Translations under genes and position numbers: made by a program
The notes under the pieces: generated by a model
Database searches by the model: none
What the model saw: only the letters and a program-made list of their open reading frames with translations
Told to the model about the DNA's origin: nothing
Assembly (NCBI RefSeq): GCF_037975245.1
Contig: NC_092582.1
Location: 8,558,501-8,622,500 of the forward strand
Origin: Apostichopus japonicus
Taxonomy: Eukaryota; Echinodermata; Holothuroidea; Aspidochirotida; Stichopodidae
DNA length: 64,000 nt
Reading direction: 5' to 3'
In this document: positions 49,717 to 54,484 of the stretch, one piece after another
Numbering within the stretch: position 1 is the stretch's first letter
Layout of the letters: each line of letters begins with the position of its first letter

Positions 49717-49733
49717 TTCACTCTAAAAAAAAA

Positions 49734-50046
49734 TTACATAGGTTGTGTACAATTCTACACAACCGCTGTGTAACTAGTGCACCTATCAACCTTGTGTAGA
49801 AACTACACAACTGTTGTGTAATTGATCATTTACACAACAGTTGTGTTAAATCTACTCACAGTTGTGTATATCCCAATACACAATACTTGTGTAAATTGTA
49901 CACAACCAGTTTGCAATTTCAGCACACCTTGTGTAAAAAAACATACACAAGTTGTGTTAATTCTACACAACCATTTTACAATTGATTAGTGTAATGTACA
50001 CAACTATGAGCACATATTACACATACTTTGTCCAGTCTTAACACAT
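49734..50046. repeat. Subterminal repeats of the 49719 element (left)
   Basis: About 20 occurrences of TTGTGTA/TACACAA-type words in alternating orientation. They are likely transposase binding sites by analogy with En/Spm; this is inference. The matching right-hand cluster is at 54362-54474. Confidence 0.8.
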
Positions 50047-50508
50047 TCTGTAGCTATAGTTCATAGCACAGAGCATAAGTATCAATTAAAAAATAATATC
50101 CAGTATAGACTATACACAGCCTCAATGTTTTGGTATGTATCAACCATGTCCGGAATAAGGTGATCAGTTCTCCTGTTGTGCTTTACATATCTTTGGATGT
50201 TATAAATAGTAGCTTGCTAATTGTGTGGATTCTACAGTAAGACCTGTGTTAAACTTAACTGCAAATTGCTTAACTATAGATGTACAGTAGGACACTATTC
50301 ACGATACAAAAAAGGATATCAATTTTCTTGGTATATATATATATTTTGGGGAGATCAAAACAAATGCTCTCCATTACAATGAATAAAACCGTAAAACATA
50401 TAATAAAGAGAAGAAAAGTTGATGGAATTCAGCGACTTACGTAACATAACAAGAAATAAAACAGAAATATGTACTTTAATAGATATAAACTATAAATCAA
50501 TGGATTGG

Positions 50509-51441
50509 TCATTTCCACATCATCATTGAAAGAATAAGTTGTAGGCTATTCTTCCGTTGAAACAAGTAATGGGTTTTACAATATTCACCATCATGGAAGT
50601 CACCCATAACACCATCAGTGCTCCCCCTATGTTCATTGACACATTCTACAAAGCCAGGACTCTCAAAAATAAGTTTGATGACATCTTTGATAGGAACATA
50701 GTAGAAAACACGAGGGGTTGGCACCTGCATCACATTCCCATTAGTTATATCAGTTCTTGGTGCATACCCTAATGTTTTCTGTTTCTCAATAGGTTGGATA
50801 AAATTCTTTGATGCCAGCAGATACTGCAGTTGCTTGTAATCTGTCTCTATGTCATAAAACGGTTTTTGACAAAGTGAAAACTTCTCAAAGAGCTCAAGAA
50901 CAGGCTCACTGTTAGTATCAACATTCTGGCTATGCAAAAATGCTTTTGTGTTTTCTTTTAGACTTCCAACAAGGTCATCAAAAGGCTGAGACACATCTTG
51001 CACCATAGTTGACACTGAACTTTGAGACACACTACTGAATGATTTAAGTTTGCAAATTAGCATGAGAGCTCGTTCCTTAACTTGCTGTTCATCAAGGTGA
51101 TCCCACTCTTCATTATATGCATCATCATCACTATCTTCATCCATGTCATCAATGCAAATGTCATCTTGCTGTATGTTTCCTATCACAGCCTCCACAGGCA
51201 AATCATCATCTTGCTCTTGGATATGTTCTCCATTGCAAATATAAGGCATTGTGTGTTGTTTAATGATGTGCCTTTTGAAGCTGTAACTTTTCCAGAAGCT
51301 TTGCTGACATCCATTTTGTTCACACACTGCAATAGATCTAAAATCACTTCCTCTAAGCAAAGAAAAGGCTCTGAAATGTGCAAAGAGCCCCTTTATGCCA
51401 CCATTAACTTCAGTTTGACAGTGGAAACACTCTAGCGCCAT
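50509..51441 (-). pseudogene. C2H2 zinc-finger, transposase-like gene (decayed)
   Basis: 310 codons from ATG 51441. Residues 5-22 have a C-x2-C...H finger-like start; residues 40-63 form a classic C2H2 finger (C-x4-C-x12-H-x4-H). An acidic stretch follows (about 70-115), and near the end is GDFHDGEY (280-287). The frame then ends abnormally in SMMMWK; in another phase the DNA continues with NDDVEMTNPL, so a 1-base loss is likely. I recall DDVE-x-(T/C)NPLG as part of metazoan C2H2-containing transposase-like proteins, comparable to the first catalytic Asp region of tnp2-type transposases; this is from memory. The rest of a transposase is missing. Confidence 0.7.
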
Positions 51442-51479
51442 TGTTAATACAAAATTATATATTTCTTTGTAGTGTTTAC

Positions 51480-51744
51480 TTGTTTTGCTAACTCCCTGGC
51501 AGTAATAACAGCTTCCTTATCAAAGTTTGTGGGATCAGAGAGAGCTTTATTATTTGTCCTGTTTGATTTTGTTCAAACCCTTACTGCACCTCCACTTGAA
51601 AAAAAAATCATCACCGTTTCTTTTCCTTCATTCTTCAGGGCCTCAAAGTTCCTCATAAACGTGATTCTCGGTCCAACTTTTGGGAACGTTCTTTTATTTC
51701 TTCCTTTCCCAGCAACAGGAAATTGTCTATGTCAATCTCATTTT
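51480..51744 (-). pseudogene. SAM-like domain, second exon (frameshifted)
   Basis: Minus-strand acceptor (ttttag) precedes 51744. Reading from the split codon gives NEIDIDNFLLLGKEEIKE, then a one-base shift is needed to continue FPKVGPRITFMRNFEALK; a further TGA lies downstream. The pattern (ID-x-D-x-LLL-x4-E-I/L, then VGPR) is the second half of a SAM protein-interaction domain. Joined to 53559-53622 it makes a whole SAM fold. Possibly an accessory (TnpA-like) gene of the transposon, or the N terminus of the same product as the C2H2 part. Confidence 0.65.
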
Positions 51745-53558
51745 CTAAAATTAAAAGAAAAAGATGATTTACTTGAAGTGTTACAAACAAGATATGGAAT
51801 GGAAATGAACATTAGTCAAAATGACAGTTATTAACTGAACTGGTACTAAAGGTGTGTATGCTGGAACATCCACATGCCATTCATTACTTTGGAGGTATTC
51901 CCTGTTACTATCAGCACATAGAAATTGTTTCTTTTGCAAATCTGTGAACTAGCCTTTCATTGTCATTAATGAAAACTTATACCATAACTTCTGCACTTAC
52001 AGATGGTCAGAGTGCATGACAAAACTACACAGAGGGATAAGCTTTGATAGGATTTTAGAGGCACAAACTGAAAACACTCAGCCTTTAATGCAAATGCACA
52101 CAAGATTGCCCTATGCATTCAATATCCCCTTTCCCAACTTAAGGGAAAGCTGTAGTAATTAATCAATGATTTCTAATATATTGAAAAAATAGGTCAAGGC
52201 TTCTAGCCTCTGCTATACAGTATTAACATTAGCATTCTTGGGTTACAATAGCAATTGCCTAATCTATGTGAATTTCTATTGTGATATTTATGCAAACTTC
52301 AACAGCAACATGCCGAAAACATCGGTTCATATAGTTCACTACCTAGGCCTAGCCTACACTACGCTCTGCACGCGACTTACGTAATATAAACTTACTGTAG
52401 TGCACAGCAGATTCATAATGCTCTATGAAAAGTTCTGCTGGAATCCTGCTGGAGTATAATCAAAGTTTGATTTAAATACAGTAACCAATTTAGTGCTGTG
52501 CTTGGTACTTAAAGGCTACATGAACAGCTAAACAGCAAAACTGCTGTACATAGTTGGTTGGGATTTTGATTGACTATAGCCTATTGACGAATGTGATCTG
52601 ATCGCTGCATTGATGATTGCGCAAGGTGTCAGCCTGCATCGTTGACGCTAGCAGCCACAAAGTGCAATTGCATAACGCAGCTGATAATAGTAAAATATGA
52701 TCAACTAGGTAGTTTAATGACCGTTGTTAGTAGCCAATAGTTTCAAACAAGAAAGCTGTTTAGCTGGTGCCACAGAAGTATACATACTTCCATCAAATTT
52801 CAATGAATCAGCATCCTAGGAAAATACTATAAGCCTACAGGATGAAAATGGGTTCAGAAAATGAAGCAGACATGCACTCATAATACTTAGCAAATTTAGA
52901 AAACTTAGTTGCCCTTCTCATTAACAAGAATGTAGAATTATAGGCCTCAACTTTATAAAAAGGCCGTTACAGGGGAAATATTCAACTACATCATCAGTTC
53001 CAAGTCCAAGGGCTTAGAGTATAAGAAGCATATGTATTAAACCTGGCACCTGAGCAACATCAATTTTTCAAACTAAGGGGAGAATTCCTGGGAACAACCT
53101 TGGTTTGTTTTGTGTAGGCTTAGATTTAGAAGTAAGACATCAAATCAGGATAGGCCTATCTTCATGAGCTAGGATTGTACTTGTAGCCTCTACTCTAGTC
53201 ATGAGTAATTTTCTCTTTCAAATCAAAATAAAAAAAACCTATAATGCAGGATTTTAGAAATATCCTATGATATTTTAAAAGGAGATAAATAAGTGCAATA
53301 GATTCGGCGCAGCCGTTTACTTTGATAAATAAAACGCTTTCGTTGATAAACAAACTATGCCTAGGCTATAGGCCTACTACTGTACTAGATATAGGCCTAT
53401 GCCTATACTGTGTAACGTTAGGTCTAACGTTAGTAATTATTACTTGTACTAGGCCTATTACTAGTCTGTACACTACATTGTACGACTACGTGAGCCTGTG
53501 ATTTGCATGAAGTTGCGTTGGCAAACCAAATTAGTTTCAAGAAATATTTTCAACTAAC

Positions 53559-53622
53559 CTTCATATATGTCCTGCATATAAGAAAGACCCCATTCCTTGA
53601 GTTTTTCTTGGACAAAGTTCAT
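53559..53622 (-). pseudogene. SAM-like domain, first exon of transposon gene
   Basis: ATG (53620-53622, minus) opens 21 codons, MNFVQEKLKEWGLSYMQDIY then E, plus one base, before a donor (GTTAGT). The phase fits the exon at 51744 (GAA join). The VQEKLKEWGL...Y pattern is the first half of a SAM domain. This exon itself is intact; the gene is called a pseudogene because of damage further on. Confidence 0.6.
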
Positions 53623-54484
53623 AGTTGACAGGTAAAAAATAGGTAATTATAACAGCAGACGGTTACCAGCGTAAGTATTGATGACTGATAGAACGGCGTC
53701 AGTAACAGCGTTACCAGCGACAGTTGACGAAAAAACGCTAGATTTGCGAAAATAAAACCCTAGAAAACGCTAAATGGTAGTTTCCCTGACATTCGTGTTG
53801 TTTGGAGTCAATTTAGCACATATTCGTAGGATGAATGGTCACCGATCACAAAATAGATTTTGAATAGTTGATTTGAGTGATAGTCTGACCCAGAAAATTT
53901 GAAAAATATGGAAATTTTCGGTAGGAAATTCCGAAGATTGGGCAAAAATACTCAAAATAAATTTGGATGGGTCTCCAAGTAAGAATTTTGTCTAACAAAT
54001 CTGAAAAGTGGTCAATTTTTGGTAATTTTAACTAGTTTTAGGCAAAAAAACGGTAGAATTACCAAAATTAGAAAAAACGTGCGCTAGAACCCCACAAATG
54101 ACTAAAAACGCTAGATCTAGTGTAAAAACGCTAACTCTGGTAACACTGGTCAGTAAAGAGCAGTGCAGTGATATATAAAATTCCCGGGCGGCAGTTTATT
54201 GCCAGATAAAGCTACGAAATCTTAAAAAAACATTTTTACTCAACTTAAAAATCCAGGAAAAATTAAAAGTAAAGTGCAAATGAAATTATAAACTGATTTT
54301 AATTTTATAATCTGCTTACAGTACTGAATAAATTAATACATTGAAATTAAAGCAGGAAAGTGGTTGTGTAACTGACGAACATAGCTCGAACTACACAACC
54401 AAGTGTTAGTTTCAATTACAATTGTGTAAAATGACATTTACACAGAGCCTGTGTAGAAATATTTACACAACTGTTTTAAGAGTG

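Follow-up and report, generated by a model that had tools for sequence, protein, structure and literature searches.

The 64,000-nucleotide stretch of the Apostichopus japonicus genome analyzed here (the window; C22:8558501-8622500 of a 671.6-Mb host genome in 35 contigs) carries a mobile element of 4766 bp whose genes, a transposase remnant and two exons of a SAM-domain gene, lie on the minus strand (Table 1). The element is very probably an internally deleted EnSpm/CACTA-type copy, with full-length relatives that hold the transposase inside a predicted intron, the second, of the SAM gene. Its boundaries are exact, with CACTCT at 49719 and AGAGTG at 54484, and three more copies, on C1, C10 and C16 (loci L031, L032 and L033), have end bases identical to those of the window copy. 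A perfect 2-bp target-site duplication flanks each of the four copies (TT in the window; TA, CG and TA elsewhere), bearing out an earlier note, made from the letters of the window, that had proposed a CACT-ended transposon at 49719..54484. The copies, of which there are at least four, share 98.5-99.8% ungapped pairwise identity and, because they are nearly identical, have probably been mobile recently. The motif TTGTGT/ACACAA occurs 20 times in the outer 480 bp of the element, five times in its inner 4286 bp and 56 times in the remaining 59234 bp of the window. Most of the 443-bp insertion nested in the window copy has a 96% identical counterpart adjoining the L031 copy on the outside (L031 7754-8150), and the C10 copy carries a different insertion of ~0.6 kb.

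The transposase remnant is a 310-aa open reading frame (ORF) lying within a longer open frame without a start (50512-51516), the transposase reading beginning at 51441. A transposase profile matched the element over profile positions 1-304 with an expectation value (E) of 4e-89 and over positions 305-317 with E 0.005; past about residue 317 of ~840 the catalytic core is absent from the window element, where the profile gave chance-level values (E 0.23 and 0.61). The earlier note had described a C2H2 protein running into a DDVE-x-TNPL motif that resembles the start of a tnp2-like core. The DDVE-x-TNPL piece is present and the profile match reaches ~317, but the core itself is missing, and the motif (about 50498-50530) lies in a frame other than that of the 310-aa ORF and does not continue it. 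The window copy is a non-autonomous deletion derivative without a catalytic core. The first database search returned one relative of the fragment, P0001, which is likewise 310 aa long, stops at the same point and differs at 3 aa; no relatives were found in phages and viral contigs.

The KP fragment of the P element is a repressor that occupies the ends, and retention of the 310-aa zinc-finger fragment in a similar role would account for an ORF that is open in three of the four copies and in P0001, and for a divergence from the window copy that is lower inside the ORF than outside it (0.11/0.27, 0.32/0.98 and 0.97/1.63 percent). The ORF is frameshifted in L033, however, and the changed codons over the three comparisons comprise 5 synonymous and 8 non-synonymous ones, too few to decide; we regard a repressor kept for this function as improbable.

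Upstream of the transposase remnant, the two SAM exons (53622-53559, and from 51744 onward) agree in phase at their junction. The spliced peptide, with X at a frame break in exon 2, was compared with Protein Data Bank (PDB) chains and gave tankyrase-1 as its best match (E=0.0015); 10 of the 12 rows at E<=10 were tankyrase, BICC1 or ANKS3/6 chains, the matched parts of which we take to be SAM domains. The full SAM domain that had been read from two phase-matched minus-strand exons stands in so far as the phases join and SAM proteins are matched, but the domain is whole only across the exon-2 frame break, which is identical in all four copies. The profile searches for SAM, C2H2 and tnp2 recommended in the earlier note returned no Pfam match for the window sequences at E<=10. 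Pfam rows for Peptidase_M13 and VapB were at chance level. Later exons of the SAM gene were not found in the window element by profile search (best E 0.59). Since these losses are common to the copies, the spread of the window family would postdate both the loss of the core and the exon-2 frame break, and would need proteins from elsewhere.

Table 1. Features of the element in the window (positions in window coordinates).
Feature	Position	Strand	Basis or remark
Whole element, 4766 bp	49719..54484	-	Non-autonomous EnSpm/CACTA-type copy; end points same in L031, L032 and L033
Target-site duplication, 2 bp, TT	49717..49718	.	Flank comparison of copies
Target-site duplication, 2 bp, TT	54485..54486	.	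Flank comparison of copies
Terminal inverted repeat, CACTCT end on the 3' side of the genes	49719..49730	+	
Terminal inverted repeat on the 5' side of the genes, CACTCT read on minus strand	54473..54484	-	
Subterminal TTGTGT/ACACAA repeats	49731..50048	.	
Subterminal TTGTGT/ACACAA repeats	54335..54472	.	
DDVE-x-TNPL piece, start of catalytic core	50498..50530	-	Frame differs from 310-aa ORF; deletion point comes after it
310-aa ORF with zinc-finger-like C/H motifs, covering the N-terminal third of the transposase	50512..51441	-	
SAM exon 2, after AG acceptor, internal frame break	51615..51744	-	3' end (donor) tentative
SAM exon 1, 64 nt, phase 1 end at GT donor	53559..53622	-	Exon-1 profile E 2e-17; profile partly built from this exon
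Nested insertion, 443 bp, foreign to original element	53706..54148	.	Not at that place in L031, L032 and L033

Intact relatives with CACT ends, for which the earlier note had advised a genome search, were found in the host genome. The relative on C20 is 15.8 kb long, running from CACTCT at 675 to AGAGTG at 16516 of a joined stretch, with TA at both flanks. Within it, SAM exon 1 (1032-1095) and exon 2 (4481-4599) precede a transposase ORF (5231-7726), and later exons follow past the transposase (10589-10736, 11428-11567 and 12729-12923). A copy of the same family on C10 holds ~6.4 kb extra at one point, with five more exons, and the ten SAM-gene exons of the C20/C10 family join in phase. The left end of the C20 family is seen in six copies (that on C20 and five others, with differing flanks). 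An AGAGTG at 8887 was ruled out as the right end of L034 because other copies are identical past it, and position 16516 of the joined C20 stretch was used. A second element, on C7, is 12.0 kb long with CACTCT/AGAGTG ends and TA duplications; its transposase and that of the C20 family share 34.7% identity. One strand of this element carries, in order, exon 1 (E 0.006), exon 2, the transposase and seven segments past it, of which six have E<=0.001 and one has 0.09. No exon 3 was identified in the C7 element.

The SAM-gene product is 100% identical to P0007 (NCBI, Apostichopus japonicus) from the end of exon 3 onward and 42% identical over its whole length to P0008 (Lytechinus pictus LOC135155655), which has a Pfam SAM domain at its start. 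PF00536 matched two of six SAM-gene proteins (best E 2.1e-6). The predicted structure of the SAM protein has a pLDDT (predicted local distance difference test) of 45. On the strength of these two matches the SAM exons are assigned to a gene continuing past the transposase. As read from the sequence, the SAM exons constitute a second gene, separate from the transposase, whose ORF lies inside the predicted second intron. The set of SAM, C2H2 and transposase that the earlier note had seen is thus together in one CACT-ended element, but it is not a single coding run. We also considered a fusion of SAM, zinc fingers and transposase into a single protein in at least some transcripts, with the SAM exons spliced into the transposase ORF. 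A gene model from Holothuria leucospilota (P0006) has this appearance, since it opens with a peptide resembling the SAM tail, MRFMRQLEGLKNEE, fused to the transposase's acidic part. Against such a fusion, the phase-0 donor of exon 2 lies directly upstream of the transposase ATG (13 nt in L018), the downstream exons carry the SAM gene on in phase, P0008 is a SAM protein without transposase, and P0003-P0005 begin at the zinc-finger Met; a fused product is in our judgment quite unlikely. A further predicted protein, P0009 (Diadema setosum, 842 aa), seemingly contains two tandem units of the C-terminal part of the SAM gene.

The association of the two genes was surveyed at 30 loci (L001-L030), where SAM-gene exons were sought 1.5 kb on either side of the transposase; in the genome search for transposase relatives, 54 of 409 candidates were scored. 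An exon-2 profile built from the window and L034 elements alone found the exon upstream of the transposase in 22 of the 30 loci at E<=5e-6, the next match being at 0.17. A nine-sequence profile, built from families that it then detects, returned the same 22 loci (next match 0.19; antisense matches from 4.6). These loci represent eight of 12 families. Downstream of the transposase, five families have a segment resembling exon 4 at E<=0.02 (L010, L011, L018, L024 and L028); a sixth, in L016, has E 0.06, the best antisense match being 0.74. The families without a SAM exon upstream are those of L015/L017, L023/L027, L028 and L029/L030, of which L028 still has a weak downstream exon-4-like segment (E 0.017). 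Transposases were aligned with one locus per family for 11 of the 12 families, leaving out L010 (internal stop) and the partial L014. In a tree of 14 transposases, confined to these relatives and without P0006 and the SAM-bearing L010, a single branch with support of 100/99 splits seven SAM-bearing from four SAM-less families, a division that fits one gain or one loss together with long joint inheritance, to judge from these sequences.

The same evidence bears on whether the SAM gene might be an ordinary host gene that was merely the landing place of CACT ends or of a transposase. The sea urchin relatives P0008 and P0009 are indeed annotated as uncharacterised single genes. However, the SAM exons lie between CACT ends and duplications at different places in four of four window-family copies, in the C20 family and in C7, and exon 2 holds its place beside the transposase in eight of 12 families, on one side of a tree branch. 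We consider a host-gene origin of this kind very improbable. Neither of the outcomes that the earlier note had named as fatal to its proposal occurred, since the C20 and C7 elements are homologues with CACT ends and the coding region moves with the ends in all four window-family copies.

Several points weigh against an internally deleted copy of an element with a transposase nested in a SAM gene. For both the C20 and the C7 element the right end was seen in a single copy. The P0007 model starts after the SAM exons, which leaves phases, splice signals and P0008 to connect SAM with the exons downstream. As query, a SAM protein spliced from two copies was used (C20 exons 1, 2 and 7-9; C10 exons 3-6). 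In the C20 copy, exons 3-6 are missing and the final exon contains an in-frame stop; in the C10 copy, exon 7 is broken and followed by other sequence. PF00536 matched the C20 SAM with E 0.002 at 18.9 of 23 bits, under the curated cut-off. Four of the 12 families lack a SAM exon within 1.5 kb upstream, and that of L029 within 6 kb. Lastly, the 30 loci include no full-length near relative of the window family, the best being 34% identical over the N-terminal part, against 62% for P0004, which comes from elsewhere.

The transposase of the full-length relatives is a single open, intronless ORF of ~840 aa. Its N terminus is zinc-finger-like and its C terminus BAH-like, and it has EnSpm/CACTA motifs and a predicted fold resembling that of RAG1. 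Core residues D403, C423, C426, H630, H634 and E654 are present in 15 of 15 relatives and D309 in 14 of 14. The zinc-finger-like residues C5, C8, H22, C40 and C45 are kept in all 14 relatives with the position and H58 in 14 of 15; the zf-C2H2 profile gave a best E of 0.25, in one of the 15. PF02992 (tnp2) matched seven of 15 relatives (best E 1.9e-5), the scores of P0003, P0004 and P0006 falling under the curated cut-off. A PDB sequence search with P0004 gave no match, and NCBIfam no relevant match. In a fold comparison, also suggested in the earlier note, the predicted core of the relatives found RAG1 as its best match in Foldseek, with template modeling (TM) scores of 0.3-0.5 and 12-14% identity, in a comparison that covered Foldseek's own candidates and does not exclude families missing there. 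A BAH-like fold is predicted at residues 699-835 of P0004, a region absent from the window copy.

With RAG1 as the best fold match, placement of the element in a sister lineage (Mirage, Chapaev or Transib) deserves consideration, the more so as these lineages, EnSpm and RAG1 have C(2)C and H(3-4)H motifs in common, according to PMC12730594. The CAC...GTG ends, the 2-bp duplications and the PF02992 matches in seven of 15 relatives speak against it. Target-site duplications are longer in these groups, 4 bp in Chapaev and 5 bp in Transib/RAG, and those found here agree with neither. A sister lineage seems unlikely. The element is EnSpm/CACTA-type on its sequence features: those of the superfamily that could be tested are present in it or in its relatives, apart from the tnp2 profile, which is weakly matched.

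On the reading of an internally deleted copy, a full-length element likely gave rise to the window family when it lost the region from the start of the core through the last SAM-gene exon, and the family likely spread by cut-and-paste with transposase supplied in trans, the loss of the core and the exon-2 frame break being older than this spread. In full-length elements the two proteins may arise by alternative processing of overlapping transcripts, as suggested by L018, where 13 nt separate the exon-2 donor from the ATG of the transposase that follows. The zinc-finger-like N terminus may recognise the ends or the subterminal repeats, the RAG1-like DDE core would, from its predicted fold, cut and join, and the BAH-like tail, likewise predicted, could dock on chromatin. 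By analogy with TnpA of maize Spm, the SAM protein would be a helper, likely self-associating through its SAM domain to bring the ends together, or might alternatively control transcription.

Elsewhere in the window, two NACHT-domain ORFs at 3225-4811 (+) and 58629-60224 (+) are 94% identical, and one 49-bp satellite has copies at both 6458-7465 and 61521-61905, so that an NLR-like gene has likely undergone segmental duplication within the window. A 16-bp unit with a 71-bp higher order forms two arrays, at 24217-24565 and 26753-27002, which are oppositely oriented, ~2.2 kb apart and perhaps the ends of another mobile element.

The likeness to the EnSpm/CACTA superfamily (CMC/CMCT group; PF02992) lies in the CAC...GTG ends, the short duplications, the D-D-C2C-H3H-E order and the weak tnp2 matches; the element differs in that a SAM gene surrounds the transposase, which has a BAH-like C terminus. 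What sets these elements apart is a SAM gene that encloses the transposase. That the earlier note had thought its combination unusual and perhaps undescribed agrees with our finding no paper on SAM with CACTA, EnSpm or DNA transposons, on SAMD3 with transposons or on BAH with CACTA in the open-licence literature (Repbase lying outside it), which does not show that it is unreported. Compared with RAG1, RAG-like proteins and Transib, the identity of 12-14% and TM-scores of 0.3-0.5 are low, and the tnp2 matches and CACT ends favour EnSpm. In the relatives, the transposase has a predicted RAG1-like fold and a tail that likely reads chromatin.

P0008 of Lytechinus pictus differs from the genes described here in being annotated as a single uncharacterised gene, and other echinoderm SAM genes are similar. 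Vertebrate SAMD3, like the SAM gene, has a SAM domain at its start, which with an approximate SAMD3 sequence is a lead only. A profile of the rest of the SAM gene, built after cutting the first 470 residues of P0009, matched the middle of that approximate sequence weakly (E=0.0043, 11 bits), better than all 500 shuffles (best 0.32). SAM genes that are annotated as ordinary genes in sea urchins, and perhaps some of vertebrates, may have originated in such elements. A wider and doubtful reading, which we offer tentatively, is that of an old animal EnSpm lineage with a nested cassette, in which a RAG1-fold zinc-finger/BAH transposase sits in an intron of a gene for a polymerising, end-synapsing SAM helper, independently of Spm tnpA/tnpD and with SAMD3 as a domesticated descendant of the helper.

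TnpA of maize Spm binds the ends of the element and brings them together. A conserved SAM second gene around an animal CACTA transposase makes the generality of such a helper need in CACTA transposition testable. According to PMC1636069, a single region of maize Spm gives rise to several alternatively spliced products, of which transposition requires two, and TnpA has a role in regulation. The same source describes SmTRC1 as an animal CACTA relative with Transposase_21, 2-bp direct repeats in seven of 14 copies and several spliced products; the word 'sterile' is absent from its main text, and the ends of the TRC elements start with CCC, unlike the CACTCT found here. In layout the elements described here resemble maize Spm tnpA/tnpD, with exons of one predicted gene on both sides of the transposase coding region; the second protein is of another kind, having a SAM domain.

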